DNA from: Akkermansiaceae bacterium
GTDB taxonomy: Bacteria; Verrucomicrobiota; Verrucomicrobiia; Verrucomicrobiales; Akkermansiaceae
NCBI GenBank assembly: GCA_028822935.1
Contig: JAPKCM010000019.1
Span: 1-64,000, forward strand
Direction: 5' to 3'
Length of the DNA: 64,000 bases
The notes beneath the pieces are model-generated. The model was not told where the DNA came from, searched no databases, and saw only the letters and a program-made list of their open reading frames with translations. Below, piece by piece: positions 4,298 to 22,020 of this stretch (position 1 is its first letter; every line of letters starts with the position of its first letter). Position numbers and translations under genes: made by a program.

Positions 4298-4565
4298 CGG
4301 TGAGACAGACCTCACGGCTTTTCACGGGTTCAGACTGCAAAAGAGCAAAAAATCACCAGCATGAGTGAAAAGTTACTTCAGAGCCAAAACCGTTCATTAC
4401 GCAGCTGAAGCTGCCTGACTACTAGCTTGGTTAAGATTCTTCCCAGGAGAGGTTTTAGGTAAAAGTATACGGACTACGCTGGAGAAGAAATATAGAGAAA
4501 AATTTTCACAAGGATTCGGCAGATGAGTTAATGCCAGCTAGAGAGCCTTGAGATTTTTAATTGTG
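4298..4565 (+). other. Intergenic stretch between wzy-like and GT4 genes
   Basis: These 268 bases contain no convincing reading frame. A weak hairpin (GTGAG/CTCAC) lies just after the wzy-like stop and precedes a short T-rich run, so it might end transcription. A second small hairpin with arms GCAGC/GCTGC lies near 4400. This is the first real break in the operon and could hold a promoter for the next gene, but no clear -35/-10 pair stands out. Confidence 0.3.
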
Positions 4566-5783
4566 ATGAGTAGCAGACCAAAAATATTACTATCATGCTA
4601 TGCTTGTGAGCCTAACAAAGGAAGTGAACCGGAGGTAGGTTGGAGAGTGGCTCAAGGCGCAGTGGACTACGCCGATGTGACAGTTTTGACGCGCTCCAAT
4701 AATCAGGAAACGATCGATGCTTCAAAGGAGTCGACTGAGGGGATCAGTTTTCTCTATTTTGACCTTCCAAGAGTTTTTCGTGTTTTGAAGAAGAAGGGGA
4801 TTCTAGGAGTAGGTCTTTATTACGTTCTTTGGCAGATTGCCGCACGAATTTGGTTTCGAGAACGTATAAAAAAATTTGATCTTGTGCATCATGTCACCTT
4901 CAATGGATTTCAGTTTCCAGGTGCTTGGTGGGGAATCGATCAACCAATTTTGTTGGGGCCCCTAGGAGGGGGAATGGTGTTTCCTGCGGAAATGTTAGGT
5001 TCGCTGGGGAGTGGTCGATCGAAGGAGAGGCTGAGGACTGCGATTGTCAGGAGTTTCAAGTGGAACCCGTTTTGGGTGAGCTATCTCAGAAGTGCTGATC
5101 GAGTTTTAGGAGCAAATGTTGAAACGGCAAAATTGCTGGAGAGCGTCCGGGGTGGGGAGGTGGAGATGATGTTAGAGACAGGGTATGAAGTTTCTGGAGA
5201 GAGGACAAAAGTTCGTGATGAAGTTGGCAGTTGCGAGGTTCTGTGGGTGGGTGGATTGATTTCAAGAAAATGCCCGGTGATGGCGATCGAAATTGCGGAA
5301 AGGATGTTCAAGAATGACGTAGATTTTAAAATGACAATCATTGGTGATGGCCCGATGATGGGGGAGTTAAGGGCGCTCATTCGGGAAAAGAAGTTGGAGT
5401 CATGTATTCGGTTGACCGGCAAAATACCCAAGGAGGAAGTGGAGCGACGCATGGAGAAAGCAGATGTCTTTCTTTTTACGAGTATGCGCGATACCTCCGG
5501 CAATGTGTTGTTAGAGGCGATGGCTCGTGAGCTTCCTTTGGTCGTTCCAAAGCATCAAGGTGCGGCACTAATTTGCTCAGATGAGCATGCGGTGCTGATT
5601 GACGTGGTGAATCCTGAGCAATTTGTAGAGCATGCAGCAGCAGGTATTAGGAAGTTGGCTAAGGATCAGGGTTTGAGGAAGAGGATGGGAGCCGAGGGAA
5701 GACGGCGATTGGAAACAAATTTTTCCTGGAATCGATATCATTCGAGGATGAAGTGTATTTACGAAGAAATTTTAGGAAGATGA
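4566..5783 (+). CDS. GT4 family glycosyltransferase (copy A)
   Basis: The 405-residue GT-B enzyme begins with the subgroup signature KILLSCYACEPNKGSEPEVGW. The C-terminal half carries the nucleotide-sugar site: WVGGLISRKCP near residue 225, IIGDGPM, and the acidic loop TSGNVLLEAM in the place of the E-x7-E motif. It is a diverged paralogue of the gene at 12804, which starts VLVSAYACAPDRGAEPGVGW. Start: an in-frame TTG exists at 4548, but the ATG at 4566 matches the family N-terminus better. Its TGA overlaps the ATG of a decayed GT2 gene. It probably acts in the cytoplasm on a lipid-linked oligosaccharide; the sugar is unknown. Confidence 0.82.
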   Translation: MSSRPKILLSCYACEPNKGSEPEVGWRVAQGAVDYADVTVLTRSNNQETIDASKESTEGISFLYFDLPRVFRVLKKKGILGVGLYYVLWQIAARIWFRERIKKFDLVHHVTFNGFQFPGAWWGIDQPILLGPLGGGMVFPAEMLGSLGSGRSKERLRTAIVRSFKWNPFWVSYLRSADRVLGANVETAKLLESVRGGEVEMMLETGYEVSGERTKVRDEVGSCEVLWVGGLISRKCPVMAIEIAERMFKNDVDFKMTIIGDGPMMGELRALIREKKLESCIRLTGKIPKEEVERRMEKADVFLFTSMRDTSGNVLLEAMARELPLVVPKHQGAALICSDEHAVLIDVVNPEQFVEHAAAGIRKLAKDQGLRKRMGAEGRRRLETNFSWNRYHSRMKCIYEEILGR

Positions 5784-6025
5784 TCAAGAGCAAAGAGATC
5801 AATTTTACTATTTAATGACCCCTAGTTACAATTATGGTCATTATATTGAAGCGTGTCTGGAAAGCGTTGCCTCTTAGGATGGGGTGAGTTTGGAGCACTT
5901 GTTTCTTTCGGCGTGAATCGGCCCTTGATGAGGAGCACTATCTCAACAAAAAATTTGGATACTGTATGGATACAGAGTTATCCGCGGGGTGCAGCGTTGG
6001 CGCTACAGGGGAAATAACCAAGTGA
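5780..6025 (+). pseudogene. Decayed GT2 glycosyltransferase (copy A)
   Basis: The start ATG at 5780 overlaps the stop of the GT4 gene. After MIKSKEINFTI the frame is lost at TAA TGA, then resumes one frame over as TPSYNYGHYIEACLESVAS, matching TASYNYGHFIRECLESVAN of the intact GT2 at 14113. A TAG at 5875-5877 then replaces a residue, and EHL follows. A second matching block, HYLNKKFGYCMDTE, corresponds to HWLDKSYGYIMDGE about 120 residues later in the intact enzyme, so the middle is deleted. There is thus one frameshift, one amber codon and one internal deletion. It is inactive. Confidence 0.85.
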
Positions 6026-6032
6026 TTGTTTT

Positions 6033-6980
6033 ATGATTACGAAGGATAAGTTCATTGAAAAATACTGGGGTGAAGTTGCGTCAAGAAATTGGACTGCGGT
6101 TGTATTGCATGACTGGGAGAAGATCCCTCATGCAATCACTTCTGATATTGACTATGTGATTTCCGGGCCAAGGCCATCAGAGTTAGTCTGCTTGATTTCA
6201 GATTATTGTGAGACCAGCGGGTGGAGTCTTACACAGATCATCGAACATGAAGTGGACGCTCTTTATTGCGTCTGTTTCCAGAAGGAGGATCCTTTCGAGT
6301 GTGTGTTGCTGGATGTAACGTGGGACTATCGAAGAAAGGGGTTTGATCTGGTGTCGAATGAAATTTTGATTCGGGGATGTTGGATGCCTGAGGGAAAACC
6401 CTTCAACGTGCCCGCTCCGTCAGTGGAGTTTCTCTATCGCCTAATTAAAGCTGCGGCCAAAGGCAAGGACCTGAAGGAGGTGGAAGGGCCTTTAAGAAAA
6501 CTCGCAGATGCAGACTCAGAGGGATGTCAGAATGTCTTGAAGGAAGTGACCGGAAGAAACTTTGGGGGTGAGGAAGGGTCTTTCTTTTCTAGGGTTCAGG
6601 GGGAGTTCTTGAGTGATCCGTATTTTCAAAAAATACGATCGGGTAGAAAATTTGGAATCCGGGAGTTTCGGTTATATACGAAGCGAATTCTCGAGCCAAC
6701 CGGACTGATTGTGGAACTTCCCGAGAGTATCACTGATGACGTGATTGAGGCTGTCGGGGAAAAAATGGGGAAAGGTTTCCGAATGACAAGAATAGAGGTG
6801 AAACGGGGCTCGTGGATTTCTGATTGGGTGGCGAGACGCAAAAGTGTTTTGGTTTTACGTAAAGGAAGTGCGAAAGGTGATCTGCTGTTGGAAGAAGCTA
6901 CAGAGGTAGGGGAGATTTGTGTGAAAATCGTAAAGTTTTTGGCAAATCGGGTTGAGGTAAGAAAAAATGGATATCGGTAG
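6033..6980 (+). CDS. Nucleotidyltransferase-like protein with eroded kinase-like C-terminus (copy A)
   Basis: This 315-residue protein has a front half like the nucleotidyltransferase-fold proteins of glycan loci. TSDIDYVISG near residue 37 gives the SDxD acidic pair, and LLDVTWDYRRKG near residue 100 gives a third acidic strand. The rear half resembles the linker and start of the thymidylate-kinase-like domain in the protein at 14997 (RILEPTGLIVEL). The glycine-rich Walker A loop GPDGSGKSS is absent, and the protein stops where the kinase core should continue. It therefore looks like a shortened relative of the gene at 14997. Substrate and role are unknown. It may still be expressed, since the frame is open. 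Confidence 0.6.
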   Translation: MITKDKFIEKYWGEVASRNWTAVVLHDWEKIPHAITSDIDYVISGPRPSELVCLISDYCETSGWSLTQIIEHEVDALYCVCFQKEDPFECVLLDVTWDYRRKGFDLVSNEILIRGCWMPEGKPFNVPAPSVEFLYRLIKAAAKGKDLKEVEGPLRKLADADSEGCQNVLKEVTGRNFGGEEGSFFSRVQGEFLSDPYFQKIRSGRKFGIREFRLYTKRILEPTGLIVELPESITDDVIEAVGEKMGKGFRMTRIEVKRGSWISDWVARRKSVLVLRKGSAKGDLLLEEATEVGEICVKIVKFLANRVEVRKNGYR

Positions 6981-7048
6981 GCCCACTTCGGGGAGATCGT
7001 TACCAGACGATTTTTTATTGGGGATCAGTGTTCAATGCAGAAAGTTAA

Positions 7049-7192
7049 AGATATCGTCCCCATTCCTTCTGGAAAAGTTTTGTGGTTGCAAAGAAAAAGG
7101 CGACTTTTAAAGGAGAGAAAGCTTTCGAAGAGGTTCATGCCCACACATTGACAGGGATTTTCGGTGAATTAGAACTAATAAGGATCAAATGA
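7049..7192 (+). pseudogene. Probable C-terminal remnant of an unidentified gene
   Basis: An open stretch without a start codon reads on to a TGA at 7190-7192, which overlaps the ATG of the aldo/keto reductase (ATGA). That is the spacing seen between intact genes here. The end reads HAHTLTGIFGELELIRIK, with normal codon use. This suggests the tail of a gene whose front was deleted. No family was recognised. Confidence 0.35.
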
Positions 7193-8178
7193 ATCAAGCT
7201 TTTCTACCTGCCAGCAAAGTAAGCATTTCCCAGGCGATTTTCGGAACAAGTCGTCTTGGTGGAACCGTCCAACAATATGACAAGAGGGCCTCTTTGGAGA
7301 TTCTGAACAAGGCCTTCGAGTCGGGAACTACGACCTTCGATACTGCTAATATCTATGCGCAGGGAAATAGTGAGAAGCTCTTGGGCGTGGCGATGAAGAG
7401 TCATCGAGAGAAGGTGATTTTGGCGACGAAAGGAGGCTATGCCTTCTCGAGCAGGGGGCGTTTTCTTACGGTTATCAAGCCGATGGTGCGGAAGCTCATC
7501 GGATCCCGCCCTGGTCTCGTCCGTGCGGCGGGGAAAGTGAGAGGAGGGCAGATGAAGCAGGATTTTTCCAGAGCCGGCTTAACCCGATCTCTTGATGAGA
7601 GCTTGAAAAGGCTGAAGTCGGATTACGTTGATATCTATCAACTGCATAGTCCTGACGAGGAGACCTTGAAGAGAGGGGAAGTCTTTGAAATCTTGAGCGA
7701 TTTTCGAAAAGAGGGAAAAATCCGGGCGGGAGGAGTTTCACTTCTTTCATGGGAGCATTTGACCCATTGCTACGGGAAAGGGGTCGATTTTGCGCAACTT
7801 GAGGCTGATTTCTTATCCGGGGTCGATAGGACTAGGGCGCTTCAAATAGCGGCAGAAAACGGGGTCTTGGTAGCAGCGAGGCAGGCCTTCGGTTCCGGGT
7901 TGATGGCAATGGACTCGGGTGATTGGTCGGTCGAGCAATTTGGAGGAGACCCGAAGAGACTCGCTTTGGCGAAAGTCAGGATGTCGCGGGTTCGGGAAAT
8001 TGGTGATCCCTTCAAAGTCATTCTGAAGTATTTACTCAACGGCTCTGAATTCCCCGCTTTCTTGTTTGCGACGACGAATCTTCGTCACCTCGAGAGAAAC
8101 TTGGAAATCATGGGAGAAGACTTTCCAAGTCCGGAGGAAGTAGCGATCGTCCGATCGGCGCTAAGAGCAACTGAGTAA
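7189..8178 (+). CDS. Aldo/keto reductase family protein
   Basis: The 329-residue protein has the AKR (beta/alpha)8 catalytic tetrad: Asp and Tyr in FDTANIY near residue 45, Lys in LATKGGY near residue 85, and His in YQLHSPD near residue 150. It should use NADPH or NADH to reduce a carbonyl. In a glycan locus the likely substrate is a keto sugar or an activated sugar aldehyde, as for other AKRs beside glycosyltransferases. Start ATG 7189 is preceded by AAGGA at a sensible distance. It opens a new segment after the decayed copy-A module, and its stop overlaps the start of a broken FkbM gene (TAATG). Confidence 0.88.
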   Translation: MNQAFLPASKVSISQAIFGTSRLGGTVQQYDKRASLEILNKAFESGTTTFDTANIYAQGNSEKLLGVAMKSHREKVILATKGGYAFSSRGRFLTVIKPMVRKLIGSRPGLVRAAGKVRGGQMKQDFSRAGLTRSLDESLKRLKSDYVDIYQLHSPDEETLKRGEVFEILSDFRKEGKIRAGGVSLLSWEHLTHCYGKGVDFAQLEADFLSGVDRTRALQIAAENGVLVAARQAFGSGLMAMDSGDWSVEQFGGDPKRLALAKVRMSRVREIGDPFKVILKYLLNGSEFPAFLFATTNLRHLERNLEIMGEDFPSPEEVAIVRSALRATE

Positions 8179-8741
8179 TGAGCGTGAAACATTTTAAATT
8201 TTGAGTGGAACATGCAAAGAAGCCTACTTCGCGAGCAAGGTCCTTTCCGGGGCAATACTTCACTGTGTCGAAGCCGATCCTGATAAAGCCGCGCGGCTTC
8301 CGACAAGGAGGAAGAACTGACTTTTTATCCCGACGAATTATCTCTCGAGTGGAGCCTTTTTCCGATTCCGGGAGCCACCAGTGAATGGTCGGAGTTAAAA
8401 GTGCAGGCAACCACTCGGGACCAAATCTTTAAGGGCATTGAGGTTGATTTTTTGAAACTCGACGTGGAAGGAGCCGATTACCGCGCTCTTTTAGGTGGAA
8501 AAAGAGTCCTGAAACGGTGCGACCTGAGAATTCTTTTGGAAATTGCTCCATGGGGAGACAAAAAAGAAAACCACCGACCATCGGCTATGATTACTCGATC
8601 TTCGAGAACCACTATCTCTTTGAAAAGAAGGGATCAACAATTGGGCGGTGGTGTGAATCTAAGGTCCTCGGCGTTGTTCTTGATCGCCCGAATTTGAAGA
8701 TCCATGTGAAGAATGTTTTCAATAGATTTCGATCACGATAA
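8178..8741 (+). pseudogene. Frameshifted FkbM-family methyltransferase gene
   Basis: Three overlapping frames carry consecutive FkbM-like blocks. After the start (MSVKHFKF, 8178) and a stop, frame 2 reads FASKVLSGAILHCVEADPD. Frame 1 (about 8302-8580) reads LTFYPDELSLEWSLF, then VDFLKLDVEGADYRALLGG, the hallmark KxDVEG motif. Frame 3 (about 8580-8741) reads SIFENHYLFEKKGST to the end. At least two frameshifts and an early stop separate them. The summed length (about 185 codons) is short for the family, so the SAM-binding front is also partly deleted. The gene once methylated a glycan or similar acceptor; it is inactive now. Confidence 0.82.
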
Positions 8742-8777
8742 TATCGCTAGAGAAAGAAACAACTTCGTTCTTAAAAT

Positions 8778-10430
8778 ATGCAAATTGACGCATCCGAAAT
8801 ATCGAAAGGCACAGAGTTGGATTGCGATGTCGTGATCATCGGCAGTGGGGCGGCGGGAATCCCCTGTGCTTGTGAACTCATCGCTTCCGGAAAAGAGGTG
8901 ATCTTACTGGAGAGTGGCGGCTTGTCGGCTAATGCAGCGACGCAAGAGTTGGCAAAAGGAGAAGTGGTAGATGCAGCTCGGCACGGGCCTCTGGAGCAGT
9001 ATCGTAAGCGAGTGTTTGGGGGGACGACGACCGTCTGGGGAGGGCGTTGTGCTCCATTCGATGAAATCGATTTCGAGAAACGGAGACATATTCCCCACAG
9101 TGGTTGGCCGATTTCCCGAAAAGATCTCGAGCCCTTTTACAAAAAGTCGCAGGAGTATCTTTTTACAGGTGAATTCGACTACGACGCGACCACCTCAATA
9201 GAGGATGGAGATCGTCCTGTTGTTAAGGGATTGAGTGATGAGGTTTGGCTCCAAGATCGTATTTGGAGATTCAGCCTTCCTGCCAATCTGGGAGCGGAAA
9301 ATCGCGAGAAGTTGACGGATGCTCCCAACGTTCGCGTCATTCTGAATTCAAATGTTCTCAGATTAAACACCAATGATGGTGGCACTGATATTCGTTCGGT
9401 CGATGTGGGCTGTCTTGATGGGAATCGTTTCCGGGTTTCAGCCAAAACTGTCATCGTGGCCGCAGGTGGCTTGGAGAGCGCACGGCTTTTGATGGTCTCC
9501 AACGATATTCACAGGAATGGAATCGGTAACGAGCATGATCAGTTAGGACGCTATTATGGCTCGCACGTGAGTGGGGATTTTGGAGAGGTTCAGTTTTTTC
9601 CAAAGGACTCGCAGGTTTTGTGGGAGTATCAGCAGACTCTGGATGGGGTTTATGCGAAGCGGCAGTTGAGAATTCGCGAAGAGATTCAAGAAAAGGAGGG
9701 TTTACTAAACATGCGGTGCATCTTGACCCACCCTCCCTTTGCGGATGCGAGTCATGGTAACGCAGTTCTTTCTGCTGCCTATCTTGCGAAAAGGTTCCTG
9801 AAGGGTCAAATTCCACCGGAATACAGTAAGGAGCTTTCAGAAGCGGGATATCACAGTCTGCCGATGCACACTAAGAACGTGGTGCTTGGTAGTTTTTCCT
9901 TAGCGAAGTTTGGTTTGCATTGGTTAAAGGATCGAATCCTTGCTCGAAGAAAATACCCCTCAATTTCTCTCAAGAGCCGTGAAAATTGCTATACGATTCA
10001 CTTTGATTCGGAGCAAACTCCGAATCCGGAAAGCAGAGTTCTTTTAGGAGATACTATGGATGCGTTTGGCCAACCACTACTGAAAGTGGATTGGAAATAT
10101 TCACAGCTGGATGTTGATAGCGTAGTTCGATCCGCGGAACTTCTGCGAGCCTCCTTGGATGAGTGTGGGATCGGTAAGTTTAAGCAAACACCCGAAGAGA
10201 CGAAGGAGATGATTCTTAAGGGATTCGGGGTTGGGAGTCATCATATAGGAGCGACCCGAATGTCCGATAGTCCAACGAGCGGAGTGGTGGATGCAAACTG
10301 TGAAGTTCACGGAGTCAAAGGGCTTTATATTGCCTCACCCTCGGTCTTTCCTACAGGGAGTTTTGCAAATCCCGTTCTGACGACTGTTGCGATCGCGCTG
10401 AGAATTATTGATCGGGTTATGCACCGGTAG
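8778..10430 (+). CDS. GMC family FAD-dependent oxidoreductase
   Basis: The 550-residue protein starts with a Rossmann FAD site (VVIIGSGAAGIPCACEL, residues 17-33, then LLESGG). GGTTTVWGGR near residue 82 is the second FAD contact, and the C-terminal domain has GSHHIGATRM near residue 492 and the closing FAD motif NPVLTTVAIALRI. It should oxidise an alcohol or sugar hydroxyl. There is no signal peptide, so it is probably cytoplasmic and may make a keto sugar for the neighbouring aldo/keto reductase to process. That pairing is inference. Length is normal for the family. Confidence 0.85.
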   Translation: MQIDASEISKGTELDCDVVIIGSGAAGIPCACELIASGKEVILLESGGLSANAATQELAKGEVVDAARHGPLEQYRKRVFGGTTTVWGGRCAPFDEIDFEKRRHIPHSGWPISRKDLEPFYKKSQEYLFTGEFDYDATTSIEDGDRPVVKGLSDEVWLQDRIWRFSLPANLGAENREKLTDAPNVRVILNSNVLRLNTNDGGTDIRSVDVGCLDGNRFRVSAKTVIVAAGGLESARLLMVSNDIHRNGIGNEHDQLGRYYGSHVSGDFGEVQFFPKDSQVLWEYQQTLDGVYAKRQLRIREEIQEKEGLLNMRCILTHPPFADASHGNAVLSAAYLAKRFLKGQIPPEYSKELSEAGYHSLPMHTKNVVLGSFSLAKFGLHWLKDRILARRKYPSISLKSRENCYTIHFDSEQTPNPESRVLLGDTMDAFGQPLLKVDWKYSQLDVDSVVRSAELLRASLDECGIGKFKQTPEETKEMILKGFGVGSHHIGATRMSDSPTSGVVDANCEVHGVKGLYIASPSVFPTGSFANPVLTTVAIALRIIDRVMHR

Positions 10431-10515
10431 CCGTTCTTCATTGGCGGATTGATCGTGACAAATCACTCGTATTGAGCCGGGTGTTCGAGAACACGATCTC
10501 AAAAACTTTAGAATT

Positions 10516-11547
10516 ATGGTATTTGAGTGCTGGAAAAAAGATCTCACTTCCGTGATGCCGCATCTTCAGCGAGTTGCGTTGGGCGAGAAAAAAGTGTCCG
10601 TGTTGGCCCTCAATGAGAAGGTTGCTCTGGGGCTCCCATCAGATCGTAATCTCGCAGCAGAAGTAGTGAAGCTCTTTCGACCGATGAAGGGAAAGGCCTG
10701 CTTCGTCGCTTCCTGTATCGAATCACTAAGTAGGATGGGAGTAGCGCCCTTAATGGGATCTTCCTTCAAAGGGAATTCTCGAGGAGAAATTTCTTGGTTG
10801 GAGGATTGCGAATCGATTGGATTTTTGGGGTGCAATCCCGGTCATGGCTTACGGTGTATTTTATTGTCCCGTGACAGTTCGAAAGAGTTTGTCGTGACCA
10901 AGTTGGCAGTTGAAGGGATTCATCAGGATGTCGCGGAGGAGGGCAGGAAGTTGATACAATTCTCGCAGAAGTTCGAAGGGGTCCCGGAGGTGATCTCTTT
11001 GGAAAGTGGCGGCGATTGGTCGGCATTCTCGATGAGGCATTTAAAGGACCGCGGCCCAATGCGCCTAGACCAGGCTTCGGTCATCAAGCTTCTGGATGAT
11101 TGGTTTCAAAAGGGGTATGTTTCGACTGTATCATTGCCATGGGTAAACTCGATTTTACAGAAGGCTCCAGTAAAGCTTGCTGGGGCCATTGCGGAGCAGA
11201 AGATTAGAAAGTCCCTACTTCACGGGGATTTTACGCCGTGGAATCTTCGAAGTGATCGGGGTAGCCTCATGGCAGTTGACTGGGAGTGGGGATCGTTGGA
11301 TGGACTGGGGGGAATCGATCTAGGTCATGGCTTGTTGATGACAGGAAATCTGGTTGATGGACTTAAGGGTGCGGAGCTTGTGAGATCGGTTATGGCGCAT
11401 GCAAGTGACGGATTGATCAAAAGATATTTGGAAAACTGTGGATGGGAGAATCCGAACGCATGGCTTGGCTTGGCCTTGCTGTATTCTGGCTCCCAAGCAA
11501 ACTTGGAAATCAAAGACGAGCTGGAGTATTTGGAATCGCGACTATGA
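10516..11547 (+). CDS. APH/choline-kinase-like phosphotransferase
   Basis: The 343-residue protein has an aminoglycoside-phosphotransferase-type kinase fold in its C-terminal two thirds. LLHGDFTPWNLRSD near residues 234-247 is the catalytic loop, with Asp as base and Asn for metal. AVDWEWGS near residue 255 supplies the metal-binding Asp. FVVTKLAVE near residue 125 may hold the ATP-binding lysine. The first 100 residues are not recognised. In this setting it more likely phosphorylates a sugar, a lipid or an amino-alcohol substituent of the glycan than an antibiotic. The next gene starts 10 bases downstream. Confidence 0.7.
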   Translation: MVFECWKKDLTSVMPHLQRVALGEKKVSVLALNEKVALGLPSDRNLAAEVVKLFRPMKGKACFVASCIESLSRMGVAPLMGSSFKGNSRGEISWLEDCESIGFLGCNPGHGLRCILLSRDSSKEFVVTKLAVEGIHQDVAEEGRKLIQFSQKFEGVPEVISLESGGDWSAFSMRHLKDRGPMRLDQASVIKLLDDWFQKGYVSTVSLPWVNSILQKAPVKLAGAIAEQKIRKSLLHGDFTPWNLRSDRGSLMAVDWEWGSLDGLGGIDLGHGLLMTGNLVDGLKGAELVRSVMAHASDGLIKRYLENCGWENPNAWLGLALLYSGSQANLEIKDELEYLESRL

Positions 11548-11557
11548 ATACAAAGAA

Positions 11558-12760
11558 ATGAGGATTCTTCAGATATTCAATCGCTACGTGCAAGAGGGTG
11601 GCGAGCAACAGGCGGTCCAAGAGACAGAGTCAGGTCTCGCACCGGAGCATGAAGTGAAGACACTTTTGTTTGATACGAGAGATTGGGAAGGAAAGAATGG
11701 AGTGGGACAGAAGGTCCAACAAGCTCTGGCAATGGTCTGGAATCCGAAGTCGATTCGGACTGCCAAGGAAACGATCGCGGAGTTTCGTCCCGATGTCATC
11801 GTCCTCCACAACATGATGCCGGTAGGCTCTGCTGCCTTGTTATATTGGTTGACCCGGCAAGCGATCCCAGTGGTGCAGTATGTCCACAACTTTAGACCGT
11901 TTTCGGTAAATGGATATTTGTGGGCGGGAGACCAGGTGGAGCGGGCAGGGCTTCGATTGAATTTTATTCCCGAGATTAAGGATGGAGCGTGGCAGGATTC
12001 ACGGGTCAAAACGCTTTGGTATGCCATGATCCTCTGGGGTCTTCATGCTTTGGGGGTCTGGAAGAAAATGACGCATTGGATTGCGATCTCACAGTTTATG
12101 AAAGAGACCTTTGCGGAAGCGGGGATACCAGCGGATAAGATGAGTGTCGTGAGGCATGCTTGGGAACCCGCGGAAAAATTGGTGCCAAGAACTTCGTTCG
12201 AAGCAAGCATGCCCTTTGTTTTCCTGGGGCGCTTGAGTGCGCAGAAAGGAATAGGCACCCTCCTTGAAGCATGGACTCAGGTGGAAAAGGCGAGTCCGGA
12301 AGCCAAGCTTGTCATCTGTGGGGAAGGCCCGATGGAGCAGGCCGTCAGAGATTTTGCGGAGGGGAGAGATCACGTTACCTATATGGGATTTGTTCGTGGT
12401 GAGAAAAAAGAGGCCCTTCTTAGAGGGGCCCGCTGCCTTCTTGCTCCGTCTATTTGGTATGAAGGCCTTGGTCTCGTGGCTTACGATGGATATGAATATG
12501 GACTTCCGGTCGTCGCCGCTAAATCGGGTGGATTGGCCGAGATTGTCATGAACGATGAAACGGGTTTCTTGGTGCCTCCTAGGGATTCGGAGGCTCTAGC
12601 GGATGGAATCGTAAGAATGTTGGGGTTGCCTGATGGTGGCTTGGCAATGGGGTTCCAAGGAAGAAAGTGGCTTGAGAAGAGCGCCACCAGAGAGCAGTGG
12701 AAAAAAGAGATGTTAAGCGTGTTTACGAAGCTGCACCCAGATTCAGGGAATTTGAATTGA
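11558..12760 (+). CDS. GT4 family glycosyltransferase
   Basis: The 400-residue GT-B enzyme begins MRILQIFNRYVQEGGEQQAV, the glycine-rich acceptor-side loop of GT4 enzymes. The donor half has FVFLGRLSAQKGI near residue 220, VICGEGPM near residue 250 and the E-x7-E-like motif EGLGLVAYDGYEYGLP near residue 300. Start ATG 11558 was chosen because it fits the family N-terminus; the frame is open further upstream but overlaps the kinase gene. It should add a hexose from a nucleotide sugar in the cytoplasm. The donor is not predictable. Confidence 0.86.
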   Translation: MRILQIFNRYVQEGGEQQAVQETESGLAPEHEVKTLLFDTRDWEGKNGVGQKVQQALAMVWNPKSIRTAKETIAEFRPDVIVLHNMMPVGSAALLYWLTRQAIPVVQYVHNFRPFSVNGYLWAGDQVERAGLRLNFIPEIKDGAWQDSRVKTLWYAMILWGLHALGVWKKMTHWIAISQFMKETFAEAGIPADKMSVVRHAWEPAEKLVPRTSFEASMPFVFLGRLSAQKGIGTLLEAWTQVEKASPEAKLVICGEGPMEQAVRDFAEGRDHVTYMGFVRGEKKEALLRGARCLLAPSIWYEGLGLVAYDGYEYGLPVVAAKSGGLAEIVMNDETGFLVPPRDSEALADGIVRMLGLPDGGLAMGFQGRKWLEKSATREQWKKEMLSVFTKLHPDSGNLN

Positions 12761-12803
12761 GGTAAGGTGCAAAAAATCGTTGAATTCATTTCCTCAGTTA
12801 TCT

Positions 12804-14078
12804 ATGAAAAAAGCGGATCTCCTGCCACGCCGCGTCTTAGTCTCAGCTTATGCTTGTGCTCCAGATCGAGGAGCAGAGCCCGGGGTTGGGTGGAACCTCG
12901 TCGCTATCATGGCGGGAGAGTATGGATATGAGCTGACGGTGATTACGCGCACGAAACATCGGGCGGCCATTGAGGGGAGCGAAGATCCAAGGGTCAAGAA
13001 CGTGCGCTGGATCTATGCTGATCCCCCAGAGTGGCTCTCCAATAAAAAGCGTGGTGCGATTGGCTTGAAGGCTTTCTATTTACTGTGGCAAAGAAAGATG
13101 CATGAAGCGGCATTGGAGCACATGCGGACGCATCGAGTGGATCTCGTGCATCACCTGACTTTCGGCAGTATTTTGCCGGCCACGATCTTGGCCGATTTGG
13201 GCCTTCCTTTGGTCGTCGGCCCGGTGGGAGGAGCAGAAATGAGCCCCCCCGAGTTGGTGAGTGATTTGGCACCAAGGCTTTGGATTAGGGACCGGTTACG
13301 GGCAGGGCTTTATTATTTTGGGAGCCGTCTTTCATCAACAAGGAGAACGTATGGAGCGTGTTCAGTTGCGCTTGGGGCGACTGAGCCCTCGGTGCAGTTG
13401 TTGCGAAGTCTGGGTGCCAAGGATGTTCGCTTGGTTCCCCAGTCCGGTTGTGGAGATGACGAGGTGGCGGCATTTTCCGAAGAAAATCCAGTCGTTGATG
13501 GGGCCCCTCAAGGTCCAATTAGAATTTTAAGCGCCAGCCGGCTGGTGCACTGGAAGGGGGTCGATCTCTCTATCGATGCCGTTTATCAAGCAGTCGAGGC
13601 AGGGCACGATGTGCAGCTCACGATTCTTCAAGAAGGACCCGAGCTTTCGGCGCTCAAGAAACTGGTCGAGAAGCGGGGGCTCACGAAGCGGGTCAAATTT
13701 GCCGGAAAGCTCGATTCGCTGGAAGATGTCTATCGTAGGATGAGAGAATCCGACGCGTTGATACATCCAGCGGTGAATGAGGCATTCGGTCAGTCGGTTC
13801 TGGAATCTCTGGCTTTGGGGCGACAGGTGATCTGCTTGGATTGGGCGGGACCTGGAATGATTGTTACGGACGATTGTGGCCTCAAAGTTGAGGTTGGGAA
13901 TCGGGAGAAGATCGTTGAGGGTCTTGCCAAGGCGATTGGCCAACTTGCGAAGCGAAGAGCTGATTGGTCAGCCATTCAGGATGCCGCAATTGCGCGATCC
14001 AAGGTCTTTAGCTGGCGGCAAGTGGCCAAGGAAATCAATCGTGCCTATCGAGTCTGCCTGGATCAAAAAGCGAAATAG
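12804..14078 (+). CDS. GT4 family glycosyltransferase (copy B)
   Basis: The 424-residue GT4 enzyme has the N-terminal signature VLVSAYACAPDRGAEPGVGW shared with the copy-A enzyme at 4566. LVHHLTFGS near residue 120 parallels LVHHVTFNG in copy A. The donor site is seen as SASRLVHWKGVD near residue 245 and EAFGQSVLESLALG near residue 325. Start: the ATG at 12804 gives a short tail before the signature; an in-frame TTG at 12780 is possible. It heads the intact module GT4 - GT2 - nucleotidyltransferase/kinase. Confidence 0.86.
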   Translation: MKKADLLPRRVLVSAYACAPDRGAEPGVGWNLVAIMAGEYGYELTVITRTKHRAAIEGSEDPRVKNVRWIYADPPEWLSNKKRGAIGLKAFYLLWQRKMHEAALEHMRTHRVDLVHHLTFGSILPATILADLGLPLVVGPVGGAEMSPPELVSDLAPRLWIRDRLRAGLYYFGSRLSSTRRTYGACSVALGATEPSVQLLRSLGAKDVRLVPQSGCGDDEVAAFSEENPVVDGAPQGPIRILSASRLVHWKGVDLSIDAVYQAVEAGHDVQLTILQEGPELSALKKLVEKRGLTKRVKFAGKLDSLEDVYRRMRESDALIHPAVNEAFGQSVLESLALGRQVICLDWAGPGMIVTDDCGLKVEVGNREKIVEGLAKAIGQLAKRRADWSAIQDAAIARSKVFSWRQVAKEINRAYRVCLDQKAK

Positions 14079-14112
14079 TCGCCGAACCATCCCATCATAA
14101 TTTCACTTATCA

Positions 14113-15000
14113 ATGATCCCTGATTTTACGATTGTAACCGCCAGTTACAATTACGGACACTTTATCCGAGAGTGCCTCGAAAGCGTTGCGAATCAAAAAG
14201 GGGCGACCTTTGAGCACCTGATTTTCGATGGTGGTTCAACAGATGATACCGCTGAGATCGTCGCGCAATTCCCTGCCGTCAAATTCACGCAAGAACCCGA
14301 TGAGGGAATGAGTGATGCCATCAATAAAGGGTTTGCCGCGGCGAAAGGTCGATGGGTTATGTGGCTCAATACCGATGATCGCCTCAAGCCCGGAGCGTTG
14401 AAGGCCGTTCTTGATTTTATTAAACATCAAGACGAGGCAGATGTGATCTATGGAGGTTGGGACTTCATTGATAAAAAAGGGGAGTATATTCGATCGATGA
14501 CTCTATTTCCTTTTGATAAACAAATGTTAAGTTACTTGGGGTGCTATATTGGTTCAACATCTGCGTTCTATCGAAATTCTACTGTGATCGGCGAAGGGCA
14601 TTGGTTGGATAAAAGTTATGGTTACATCATGGATGGTGAATTTTACAACCGACTTGCAGCACTGGGTAAGAGGTTCGTGTATATGCATGCCTTGCTTGCA
14701 GACTTTCGCATGCACGGAATGAATCTGAGTTCTAAGCACAAGGATTCATCGAATGCTACCGAGCAGCTGGTTCTTGAGAAACAGCATGCGGAATCGATCG
14801 CCATTAGACGGGCCTATGGATGGCATAAGGTGACCGAACCTCCTTGGGTCTGGTTTGCAGATGGAGTCATCTATTTGTACTTTCGCATCAAGAAATTTGC
14901 AGCGAAGCGTTTTTACAAAGCTTCTAAAACTCTCATCGAGCTACCTCGTGAGACCAGCAGAGCTGAGAGCGAGCCAAAAGAGCAGGCAAAGAATTCATGA
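14113..15000 (+). CDS. GT2 family glycosyltransferase (copy B, intact)
   Basis: The 295-residue GT-A enzyme has FTIVTASYNYGHFI at the N-terminus, FDGGSTDDTAEI near residue 40 and the DxD-type metal site WLNTDDRL near residue 88. YIMDGEFYNRL near residue 172 forms the acceptor end. It has no membrane helices and is most like WcaA/KfoC-type chain-extending GT2 enzymes. The stop overlaps the next ATG (ATGA). It is the template for recognising the decayed copy at 5780-6025, which has lost its middle. Confidence 0.88.
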   Translation: MIPDFTIVTASYNYGHFIRECLESVANQKGATFEHLIFDGGSTDDTAEIVAQFPAVKFTQEPDEGMSDAINKGFAAAKGRWVMWLNTDDRLKPGALKAVLDFIKHQDEADVIYGGWDFIDKKGEYIRSMTLFPFDKQMLSYLGCYIGSTSAFYRNSTVIGEGHWLDKSYGYIMDGEFYNRLAALGKRFVYMHALLADFRMHGMNLSSKHKDSSNATEQLVLEKQHAESIAIRRAYGWHKVTEPPWVWFADGVIYLYFRIKKFAAKRFYKASKTLIELPRETSRAESEPKEQAKNS

Positions 15001-16268
15001 ATCTTCGTAGTCAGGCTGGTCTCAGAGAGTTTGTAGCGGCTCAGGAAGGGAAGGTCGCATTTCTTCGCTTCGAGCGCTGTGGGCTGAAGCAGGGGCCTTT
15101 CAGCGATTGGGATATCGCGGTAGAGAATCACGCGCCAGCGATGAAGGCGTGTGATGGTCTTTACGGAACTCCGTGGACGAGGATTCCGAGGCAGTATGTC
15201 GTCCAATACTTTTTTGATTGGGGGCAATGTGATTTATTACCAGTCTTCGAGTGGAATGGGATTGAGTACCTCGACCAAAAGTTATTCTGGAGCAAGGTGG
15301 CTCCGCTAGAGAAAGACGGAATTCCGCGTCCGGCTTTGGGCCATGACGCATACATCGCCTGGATGACGGGGCTTTTGTGGGGGCGCAGGTATAACAGGCG
15401 CTACCGTAATTTCATCAAGGAAGCGGTAAAGAAGGATGAAGATAATTTTAGAGAATGCCTCCGTGCGGCTTTTGGTAACAGGCTAGCAGAAAACCTCTTC
15501 CAGATTGCGGCAAGAGGAGATGCTGGGGTTGCTACCCACTGGGTGAGCTCCATGAGGTTTACATTAGCGAGGCGGCAAATGGTTCGCCATCCGCTTAAGA
15601 CGGCTACCAACGTCGTAAAGCACTGGCTTTGTGAATGGCGATTCCATCGTCGATTGGCATTGCCCTGGGTTGGAATTCTCGGTCCCGATGGGAGTGGCAA
15701 ATCAAGTGTGATCGAGGAGCTCAATAAACGACTGAAACTTTCAAGAATCAAAGTTAGAGCGATCCATTGGTTGCCTAAGTTGAACCCTGCGACTGGAGAC
15801 TCTAATATCGTTATTACAGATCCGCACGCGCAACCTCCCAAGTCAGCATTTCTATCTAGTCTTCAGCTGGTCAAGATCGTGCTCTATTGGTGGTTCGCTT
15901 CGATTCGCTACCTTTTCCATTTGAGAGCAAAGAAAGAGATGGTGCTTTCTGATCGTTTTTATCCGGACCTGCTTGCCGATCCGCGGCGTTATCGTTATGG
16001 AGCTAGTACCAAACTTGCGGAACTTGCGTTTAAATTGATCCCGCGACCTGATCGGGTGATCATTCTACATACTGATGAAGAAACGATCTTGAAGAGGAAA
16101 CAGGAGGTTTTGCCAGAAGAGTTGGTGAGGCAGCTAGAATGTTACAAGAACATCGCGGAGGAATTGGGTGACCGGGCGGTCTTGGTTGATTGTGGTCAGG
16201 AATTGGATGCGGTAGCTGACGAAGTACTAGAAGTTGTTTTGGAAGCTCTCGCTGAACGAAGACGATGA
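14997..16268 (+). CDS. Fused nucleotidyltransferase-like / thymidylate-kinase-like protein (copy B)
   Basis: The 423-residue protein has two parts. Residues 1-200 resemble a nucleotidyltransferase fold, with SDWDIAVEN near residue 38 and CDLLPVFEW near residue 77 giving the acidic residues. Residues 220-423 form a P-loop kinase: Walker A GILGPDGSGKSSV near residue 222, an LSDRFYPDL motif near residue 317, like the DR(Y/F) of thymidylate kinases, and a lid region rich in Lys and Arg. Such fusions occur in surface-polysaccharide loci but their substrate is not established. A phosphorylated sugar or lipid carrier is possible. Both ends overlap neighbours by ATGA, implying translational coupling. 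Confidence 0.72.
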   Translation: MNLRSQAGLREFVAAQEGKVAFLRFERCGLKQGPFSDWDIAVENHAPAMKACDGLYGTPWTRIPRQYVVQYFFDWGQCDLLPVFEWNGIEYLDQKLFWSKVAPLEKDGIPRPALGHDAYIAWMTGLLWGRRYNRRYRNFIKEAVKKDEDNFRECLRAAFGNRLAENLFQIAARGDAGVATHWVSSMRFTLARRQMVRHPLKTATNVVKHWLCEWRFHRRLALPWVGILGPDGSGKSSVIEELNKRLKLSRIKVRAIHWLPKLNPATGDSNIVITDPHAQPPKSAFLSSLQLVKIVLYWWFASIRYLFHLRAKKEMVLSDRFYPDLLADPRRYRYGASTKLAELAFKLIPRPDRVIILHTDEETILKRKQEVLPEELVRQLECYKNIAEELGDRAVLVDCGQELDAVADEVLEVVLEALAERRR

Positions 16269-17452
16269 TAAGAGTTGCTCATATTCTATCTTACTTCCCT
16301 GGACAGGAGGGTTTGACCAGCTTCTGCCGAGGGCTGGGAGCTGCGTTCGAGGATGTTGAAGGCATTGATGTGCCGATCATCACCTTTCGGGCGAAGCCGG
16401 TTAGGGAAGCGACTGGAAAGGAGCCTCCACAGATCAAGTTTCCGCACCACAATCGTCATCCTTTTGATCTGCCGAAGGCCTTTCTGAATGCTTTAGATTC
16501 GAAAGAGCTCGAATTGGACGGGGCAGTTCTTCACGGGACATACAGCCCGCAGGTCTTTGCGCAGGCTAGGGCGCTTCATCGACGTGGAATTCCATACATT
16601 TTTGTCCCTCACGACCCTTATGTGCGAACCCTCCAGAAGCATAAAGCGTTTCGCAAGTTCCTCTACTGGCATTGTTGTGAGAAATGGGTGATCCAGCACG
16701 CGGCTGCGGTCCAGCTCTTGTCCACCGAGCATGAGGGGCCGCTTCGAGAGCAAGGGATAACGACCCCTGTATTCACAGTAGCGAATGGTTGCGATACTGA
16801 TGACTTGGTTCATCTGGCACCAGATGCCCGGATTCCCGGCTGCGAGGAGGATTTTAGGATCCAATATTTGGGCAGAATGGATCGGAATCACAAGGGTCTC
16901 GATCTCCTTATTGAGGGGTATGCGCAGTTTCTGAAAAAAGTGGGGAGTTCTGAGAGAATCCAGCTCGTTCTGAGTGGGAATGATTGGGAAGACCGTGATT
17001 TTTTAGAAGATTTGGCAAATTCCCTTCATTTGGGTGCGAACATCCTCTTCACAGGGCGACTCCCAGAACACTCGATCACGATCCACTCACGGGCTGATTT
17101 GTGCGTTCTGGCATCGAGATTCGATGGATTTGGACTCACGATTGTGGAGGCGATGATGGCGTCAAGACCAGTTCTGGTGTCGACAAGGGCGGGCATCGCA
17201 AATCACGTCAGAAAGTCGAATGGAGGTTTCCTGGTGGAGCCTGACCCCGAGAGTATTGCGGAAGGATTACTTGAGGCTTGGAGGCAGCGCAATTTCCTGA
17301 AGGAAATTGGAGTGAAGGGGCATCAATATGTGACGCGTGAGCTCACGTGGGCATCGATCGCGGCTCAATCGGCGGCTGCTTACACCAAATTTTTTCCCCT
17401 TGACGAAGGAAGGGACGAGACTGAACTTCAACCTCAAGACTTAATTTTTTAA
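16265..17452 (+). CDS. GT4 family glycosyltransferase
   Basis: The 395-residue GT-B enzyme opens MIRVAHILSYFPGQEGLTSF and has a donor domain with IQYLGRMDRNHKGLDLLIEG near residue 200. The E-x7-E motif DGFGLTIVEAMMASRPVL lies near residue 285. The ATGA overlap with the fused kinase gene shows it belongs to the same unit. Five bases separate its stop from the GTG of the DUF1800 gene. It probably adds a late sugar of the repeat unit. Confidence 0.87.
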   Translation: MIRVAHILSYFPGQEGLTSFCRGLGAAFEDVEGIDVPIITFRAKPVREATGKEPPQIKFPHHNRHPFDLPKAFLNALDSKELELDGAVLHGTYSPQVFAQARALHRRGIPYIFVPHDPYVRTLQKHKAFRKFLYWHCCEKWVIQHAAAVQLLSTEHEGPLREQGITTPVFTVANGCDTDDLVHLAPDARIPGCEEDFRIQYLGRMDRNHKGLDLLIEGYAQFLKKVGSSERIQLVLSGNDWEDRDFLEDLANSLHLGANILFTGRLPEHSITIHSRADLCVLASRFDGFGLTIVEAMMASRPVLVSTRAGIANHVRKSNGGFLVEPDPESIAEGLLEAWRQRNFLKEIGVKGHQYVTRELTWASIAAQSAAAYTKFFPLDEGRDETELQPQDLIF

Positions 17453-21012: not shown

Positions 21013-22020
21013 TTGTTATTTGTTAGTAATCAGATTATTCAGATGACCGTGGCTGGAAGCAACGAATCTAAGAATGTGCTTCGCTCTCCTCTGGGCTGGC
21101 CCAAGCCGGCCCTGATCTTCACTGGTCTTTCGGTGTTGCTACTTCTCTATTTTTACGTTTTTCATAATTCCTATCCCACGACCAATGGCAAATCCTTGGC
21201 TGGCTGGGGGTGGCGTGCTTGCAACTCAGACAATGGATTCTTGCATGGGCGCTTCATTCCTTTCGCCTTTGCGGTCATGTGCTGGCTCGGATGGAAACGC
21301 GCAAAGGGTGAAGAGGTAAAGCCGAGCAATTGGGGTTTAGCAATCTTGGCTGTGGGATTGATTCTCTACGTGGGATCGGTGAGAACGATTCAACCGAGGA
21401 TTGCGATCATCGGATTGCCCTTCACGATTCTCGGAACTCTTTATTTTCTTTTTGGTTTTCAGGTGACCAGGCACTTTATCTTCCCCGCATTCTTTTGGTG
21501 GTTTGCGATGCCAGTTCCTGGTCTTGAGACGGCATTGACCGGGCGCCTTCAGCTCTTGGTGACAGAATTCTGTTTCCATACGGGTCAGTTTGTCGGGATG
21601 GACTTGGTTCGCCAAGGGAACACGATCACCATCCTTTCCGGGAGCGGGGAAAGTTCGATGGATATTGCGGATGGGTGCAGTGGCATTCGATCCTTGATGG
21701 CGTTAACGATGATCGCAGCGGTGTTTGCTCATTACACTCAGAAGAGTCTTTGGAAGAAAGCGGTCCTTTTTGGCTCCTCATTACCCTTGGCGATTATTGG
21801 AAACTTCGGAAGGATCTTTACGATTCTGGTGATCGCCCAGATGGGATTCGCAGATTTCGCCATGAAGACCTACCATGATTGGGCGGGGCTTTTGTTCTTT
21901 TTCCCCATTGCGCTATCGGGCCTGTATTTGATCGATTACTTGCTCAATATTCGTGAGCGCCGAAAGCGTAAGAAGAAGGTTTCAGTTTCGCGAAAGAACA
22001 CGACTCAGATTGCCAAATGA
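21013..22020 (+). CDS. Exosortase (Xrt family)
   Basis: The 335-residue protein has about 8 membrane helices. It carries the exosortase/archaeosortase triad: Cys222 in ADGCSGIRSL, Arg267 in GNFGRIF and His288 in YHDWAG. The family cleaves C-terminal sorting tails (PEP-CTERM-like) and probably links the proteins to an extracellular glycan. The start is taken as TTG 21013 because GAGGA sits about six bases upstream; ATG 21043 is the alternative and would shorten the protein by 10 residues. The stop overlaps EpsI (ATGA). No sorting-tail substrate was found in this window, so targets must lie elsewhere. The subfamily is not assigned. Confidence 0.9.
   Translation: MLFVSNQIIQMTVAGSNESKNVLRSPLGWPKPALIFTGLSVLLLLYFYVFHNSYPTTNGKSLAGWGWRACNSDNGFLHGRFIPFAFAVMCWLGWKRAKGEEVKPSNWGLAILAVGLILYVGSVRTIQPRIAIIGLPFTILGTLYFLFGFQVTRHFIFPAFFWWFAMPVPGLETALTGRLQLLVTEFCFHTGQFVGMDLVRQGNTITILSGSGESSMDIADGCSGIRSLMALTMIAAVFAHYTQKSLWKKAVLFGSSLPLAIIGNFGRIFTILVIAQMGFADFAMKTYHDWAGLLFFFPIALSGLYLIDYLLNIRERRKRKKKVSVSRKNTTQIAK

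Follow-up and report, generated by a model that had tools for sequence, protein, structure and literature searches.

We analyzed a 64,000-nucleotide stretch of DNA from an Akkermansiaceae bacterium (assembly GCA_028822935.1, contig JAPKCM010000019.1, positions 1 to 64,000; hereafter, the window), in which two sets of putative glycan genes of the families GT4, GT2, and nucleotidyltransferase (NT), designated copy A and copy B, are found. The contig is 69 kb long, with the window at its start, and belongs to a genome of 4.59 Mb that is 96% complete. Domain and profile searches identified the locus as an exopolysaccharide cluster encoding a pyruvyl transferase, a Wzy-type protein, several glycosyltransferases, DUF1800 and DUF1501 proteins, and an EpsH-family exosortase. 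The exosortase gene (21013–22017) scored 146.9 bits against TIGR02602 (cut-off, 105.55) and exceeded the cut-off of PF09721, which marks the locus as exosortase-linked; exosortase genes typically lie close to exopolysaccharide genes (PMC1569441). A sequence-only reading had described copy A as decayed and copy B as intact, and had explained the pair by an old duplication or by a merger of two related loci. This description was partly confirmed: the gene features and the GT2 lesions are real, while the decay of the copy-A nucleotidyltransferase and the view of an N-terminal GT4 signature as unusual had to be corrected.

All genes described here are on the forward strand. Copy A consists of an intact GT4 glycosyltransferase gene of an A-type clade (A_GT4; 4566–5783), a GT2 gene remnant (psi-GT2; 5780–5986, with an approximate end), and an intact kinase-less nucleotidyltransferase gene (A_NT; 6033–6980). 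Copy B (12804–16268) consists of a B-type GT4 gene (B_GT4; 12804–14078), a GT2 gene (B_GT2; 14113–15000), and a gene for a nucleotidyltransferase fused to a thymidylate-kinase-like P-loop kinase (B_NT; 14997–16268), and all three are intact, as had been stated. Assignment to GT4 was based on the Pfam model Glycos_transf_1, against which A_GT4 and B_GT4 scored 82.6 and 88.1 bits, respectively (cut-off, 26.4), and B_GT2, an open frame, scored 93.9 bits against Glycos_transf_2 (cut-off, 23.3). B_GT4 was 72% identical to its counterparts in G002 and G006 (clade support, 100/99; related genomes and loci are denoted by handles beginning with G or L). In B_NT, the motifs GPDGSGKS and DRFY were conserved and G229, K235, D319, and R320 were invariant, marking it as a P-loop kinase; its match to Thymidylate_kin (E = 3.9e-5; Pfam score, 23.9) was under the curated cut-off of 27.

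The GT2 remnant between A_GT4 and A_NT was delineated by tblastn and frameshift-tolerant alignment. Its first piece matched B_GT2 with an E value of 2e-11 and its second piece, in another frame, with an E value of 5e-7, bearing out the reported correspondence of the pieces to B_GT2. The frameshift-tolerant alignment to the GT2 of a relative scored 122, a value reached by none of 300 shuffles (mean, 27; maximum, 51), and that to B_GT2 scored 100 (shuffle maximum, 51). The ATG of the remnant at 5780 overlaps the A_GT4 stop codon, as expected of a former operon neighbor. The frame changes at about 5811–5817, between the N-terminal MIKSKEINFTI and TPSYNYGHYI; a TAG codon follows at 5875, after TPSYNYGHYIEACLESVAS; and an internal deletion of about 107–112 codons near 5894–5913 has removed the catalytic middle of the GT2 domain. 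The second piece (STCFFRRESALDEEHYLNKKFGYCMDTE) runs to about 5986, beyond which the 3′ end is missing. Thus, the frameshift, amber codon, and deletion that had been described were all present, and the loss of the 3′ end was additional. The codon-position GC (guanine plus cytosine) profile was abnormal in the remnant and normal in A_GT4 and A_NT. With no open frame containing a catalytic middle, the copy-A GT2 is a pseudogene, and it is the only demonstrably broken gene of the A set. An assembly artefact, in which A_GT4 and A_NT were misjoined over the remnant or sequencing errors produced the lesions, is suggested by the metagenome-type assembly of 156 contigs and by a copy-A gene order shared with no relative, but is improbable, since long deletions are not explicable as read errors, the overlap of the GT4 stop codon and the ATG is intact, and the genes on both flanks read normally.

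A_NT, a protein of 315 amino acid residues, aligned end to end with proteins of 321–346 residues from G018, G004, G026, G008, L056, L063, L065, and L067. The Walker A motif of P-loop kinases (GxxGxGKS/T) was absent from A_NT and from all of the aligned kinase-less relatives, and this family is intact in at least eight other genomes. Because A_NT is a full-length member of a kinase-less family, its missing P-loop is not a lesion of the window locus. The reported absence of Walker A is therefore correct, but its interpretation as decay is not: A_NT is not decayed, and the absence of Walker A is far older than the window locus. Likewise, the dismantling of copy A around a retained GT4 holds for GT2 and GT4, but A_NT is intact and was also kept. 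D38, D40, and D94 were invariant, and residues 2–192 had a nucleotidyltransferase fold, indicating a pol-beta-type nucleotidyltransferase; no match was obtained to any Pfam or NCBIfam model. The AlphaFold prediction had a pLDDT (predicted local distance difference test) of 92, and the fold search reported mostly the N-terminal domain. In the predicted structure, residues 225–255 form a strand-helix-strand arrangement, where B_NT has strand–P-loop–helix–strand at residues 224–256. A_NT and B_NT showed no pairwise BLAST similarity, but their profiles were aligned by hhalign with a probability of 99.3 and an E value of 3e-20, with the match covering the nucleotidyltransferase domain and continuing into the first part of the kinase domain, in which A_NT lacks a P-loop. 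The A_NT tail is best interpreted as an ancient kinase domain that the entire sub-family has retained in eroded form.

In three genomes of other genera (G166, G099, and G136), the kinase-less NT gene is followed, directly or past one open frame, by a separate P-loop gene of about 200 codons with an intact loop of GCDGSGKS or GCDGCGKS, and GT4A (the A-type GT4) and GT2 come next. A tentative and rather unlikely reading is that A_NT represents an undescribed family of nucleotidyltransferases that carry a P-loop-less pseudokinase domain and require a separate active kinase or are regulated by way of one, so that the A and B modules would be functionally interlocked and not redundant. On the same speculative footing, the partner kinase would be the neighboring gene in the other genera and the B-block NT/kinase fusion in the window genome (G000). 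The kinase of B_NT was the single match in G000 and the only such kinase found there, and each of seven same-genus genomes tested gave one match, always in the fused B-type NT. A stand-alone kinase is absent from the A side, but it is absent from near relatives too. A candidate decayed kinase at about 6981–7130 (DRYQ..., KVKDIVPIPSGKVLWL..., kinase-like by eye) was rejected, as its frameshift-tolerant scores were inside the shuffle range and the best was reached by 25 of 300 shuffles. B_GT2 was likewise the single match in G000 at E ≤ 1e-45 and the only intact GT2 of its family found there, and the six same-genus genomes possessing this GT2 gave one strong match apiece; genomes with the B block hold a single strong match of the family.

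Gene order was compared among relatives having an A-type NT and an A-type GT4 on one contig. The NT gene was upstream of the GT4 gene in G018, G004, G026, L056, L063, L065, and L067; the order was NT–kinase–GT4A–GT2 in G166, G099, and G136, and fused NT/kinase–GT4A–GT2–APH-like in G034 and G095. We found no literature on the NT–kinase–GT4A–GT2 module. Copy A is this widespread module in rearranged form, and its resemblance to copy B in gene order was not inherited. The sequence-only reading had named two findings that would speak against it, grouping of the two copies with unrelated families and a lack of order conservation; only half of this was seen, as the A and B GT4s lie apart within one large family and order is conserved, but as NT–GT4(–GT2). 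The identities of A_NT and A_GT4 to their relatives covaried (47–49% and 46% to G018 and L056, and about 33–34% and 35–37% to G004, G026, and L063, respectively), indicating that they were inherited as a pair. GT2 is absent beside GT4A in G004 and L056. In G004, the interval separating GT4A from the APH-like gene (L040:10127–10758), which is the GT2 site in canonical modules, scored weakly as GT2 (3 of 200 shuffles), and its best Pfam match was DUF772 (E = 0.11, not significant); by eye it is closer to a decayed transposase, and it was rejected as a GT2 remnant. The A-type NT and GT4 of L067, recorded as Rhodopirellula sp. MED697, were very close to those of Akkermansiaceae-type genomes (end branches of less than 0.1 for L067 and G008), and those of L063, recorded as Robiginitomaculum sp., were 76–79% identical to them. 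These are probably misbinned contigs, or else recent transfers.

A_GT4 is homologous to B_GT4 along almost the entire protein (28% identity; E = 2e-42). In a GT4 tree of 45 rows, A_GT4, which is 45–46% identical to its counterparts in L056 and G018/L039, was sister to L056 and G018 (100/100) within a verrucomicrobial clade of 17 rows (100/98), and B_GT4 belonged to a clade of seven rows with G002, G006, G004, G026, G009, and G155 (100/100). Rows of other phyla lay between the A and B clades. The approximately unbiased (AU) test rejected a clade of all verrucomicrobial A-type rows with the B-type rows (p = 1.6e-5) and a clade of the three nearest A rows with B (p = 2.9e-6). The N-terminal signature YACEPxxGSExGVGW, which had been noted as unusual in the two copies, is family-wide and occurs in many phyla, including Cyanobacteria, Bacteroidota, and Acidobacteria. 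Since A_GT4 shares only 46% identity with its nearest relative, synonymous sites are saturated; therefore, equal outgroup distance, identity covariation, and codon-position GC were used in place of the ratio of nonsynonymous to synonymous substitution rates (dN/dS) to judge selection. The GT4 identities to the outgroup L040 were 36.1% for the window, 36.6% for L056, and 36.8% for L039, showing no acceleration of A_GT4. For A_NT too, the outgroup distance matched that of intact relatives. The three substitutes agree that A_GT4 and A_NT have been kept, and both evolve no faster than their intact relatives.

The phylogeny of the GT2 remnant rests on 67 usable columns. Its best matches were GT2s of canonical modules, identical at 39, 37, and 35 of the 67 columns compared to 29 for B_GT2. 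In the tree, the remnant grouped with the GT2s of G166, G099, G136, and G096 (a set of six rows; 99/96), most of which are in canonical modules, and B_GT2 fell in a separate same-genus clade (100/99); the remnant had an end branch of 2.97, compared to 0.2–0.5 for most of its tree neighbors. Pairing the remnant with B_GT2 was rejected by the AU test (p = 0.0019). This result, the better matches to GT2s of other genera, and the operon-like overlap with A_GT4 make it extremely unlikely that the remnant is a partial copy of B_GT2, as the 56% identity across the first 32 residues might suggest.

Duplication of a whole GT4–GT2–NT block followed by decay of copy A would account for three families recurring in an identical order within 10 kb, for the homology of the two GT4s and the two GT2s, and for the profile-level homology of the two NTs. 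It is nevertheless very unlikely: the A and B genes are not sisters in the GT4 tree or in that of the remnant, the NT sub-families differ in architecture, and NT is upstream of GT4A in relatives. Nor did the three pairs show the equal divergence proposed as a sign of duplication, with 28% identity for GT4, about 43% over the surviving columns for GT2, and a value not measurable by BLAST for NT. Of the two origins considered in the sequence-only reading, duplication was thus not supported, and merger was.

The B block, GT4B–GT2–NT/kinase–GT4d–DUF1800–DUF1501, is conserved in G006 and G026. In G002, an additional GT4 separates GT4B from GT2; the stretch examined in G004 ends past NT/kinase, and the contig of G018 ends inside GT2. 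GT4d (16265–17452), a further GT4 and a conserved partner in the block, was 61–67% identical to those of G002, G006, and G026 and 64% identical to that of G018. In L048, L049, and L051–L053, from several same-genus genomes, a single open frame of about 800 codons had matches to the B-type NT/kinase as well as to GT4d and may be a gene fusion.

We consider that the locus probably arose when two related modules merged and redundant parts were lost, copy A being the remainder of the canonical module in permuted order. The A set would be the leftover of a family-wide module NT–kinase–GT4A–GT2–APH-like, with NT and kinase separate or fused, residing in the same exosortase-linked cluster as the distinct B block, GT4B–GT2–fused NT/kinase–GT4d–DUF1800–DUF1501–exosortase. 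The B block would cover the GT2 and kinase steps, with one of each family per genome. The A-side GT2, a pseudogene here, may have been lost through redundancy with B, with the A-side kinase being absent, and A_GT4 and A_NT would have been retained, presumably to add or activate a unit not supplied by the B block. The B_NT kinase may work with A_NT, and the sugar chemistry of both modules is putative. Several points weigh against the merger. We found no genome in which both GT2 copies were intact, and hence redundancy as the driver of GT2 loss is only what we infer. The order GT4–GT2–NT at copy A was seen only in the window genome, unlike all relatives. G009 has an A-type GT4 directly 5′ of a B-type NT/kinase, so partners are not fixed. 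Grouping of the remnant with the whole B_GT2 clade was disfavored, but not rejected at 0.05 (AU p = 0.09; 67 columns, long branch).

Acquisition of the A set by horizontal transfer, with another Akkermansiaceae-like lineage as donor and the B-holding cluster as recipient, followed by paring down, is compatible with such a merger and not exclusive of it, and we regard it as possible though not likely. A_GT4 and A_NT are sporadic, as many genomes of the genus lack them or have replacements, the A-type GT4 clades do not follow genus (G018 and G004 are in different A sub-clades), and GC is lower at 1–10 kb than further along; on the other hand, GC varies in the B genes too (B_GT2, 0.459), and the closest relatives of both A_GT4 and A_NT come from within the genus or family.

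Understood as a merger, the locus looks like ordinary cluster turnover and not a fresh duplication, and would be a clean case of it in an exopolysaccharide cluster, in which two related modules coexist, GT2 and kinase are reduced to one copy per genome, and GT4 and NT stay. It also illustrates that a gene without a catalytic motif is not necessarily decayed, as comparison with relatives turned the seemingly broken A_NT into an intact, unnamed protein family. Because gene loss is common in exopolysaccharide clusters, the broader significance is modest.

Other features were observed around the two copies. The APH-like gene (10516–11547) was recognized by a Pfam APH match below the cut-off (E = 0.0067) and by its position in L045, L173, L177, and L183; in the canonical module of other genera, it comes after GT4A–GT2. 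An FkbM-type methyltransferase C-terminal fragment without the N-terminal part (8401–8694; Pfam Methyltransf_21, E = 2e-9) is another pseudogene. The contig begins at a second, decayed pyruvyl transferase with several stops (1–300; score 174, shuffle maximum 43), the sequence upstream of which is unseen. Next comes a C-terminal portion of a Wzx-type flippase gene, interrupted by an in-frame stop (305–673; score 255); this second half-lost neighbor pair of the cluster directly precedes the intact pyruvyl transferase gene (694–1800). No remnant of NT, kinase, GT2, acyltransferase, or methyltransferase was found at 4298–4548, nor of GT4A or GT2 at 6978–7188, and neither interval contained a recognizable coding remnant.

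Among known proteins, the pol-beta-type nucleotidyltransferases ANT(2″)-Ia, MenT1, and JHP933 share the fold of the N-terminal 190 residues of A_NT (Z = 8.8–11.8), but are only 8–15% identical to it and lack its extra kinase-derived C-terminal domain. Residues 219–311 of A_NT aligned with the adenosine 5′-phosphosulfate (APS)-kinase-like C-terminal domain of yeast ATP sulfurylase (1jec and 1j70; Z = 7.0–7.1, 90 residues, 3.5 Å), which has no defined function (PMC3779200). A Z score below 8 may reflect a common arrangement only, with no sequence relation shown, and it is the hhalign result, not this likeness, that links the A_NT tail to the B_NT kinase. The A and B GT4s resemble the nearest NCBIfam model, EPS_EpsH (NF041879), in fold family and N-terminal signature, but are far under its equivalog cut-off (114 of 800 bits) and form separate sub-clades. 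The cluster as a whole resembles the exosortase-linked PEP-CTERM/EpsH exopolysaccharide loci (Haft 2006, PMC1569441) in combining glycosyltransferases, a Wzy-type polymerase, and an EpsH-family exosortase, and differs from them in its additional DUF1800 and DUF1501 genes and its paired NT/kinase genes.

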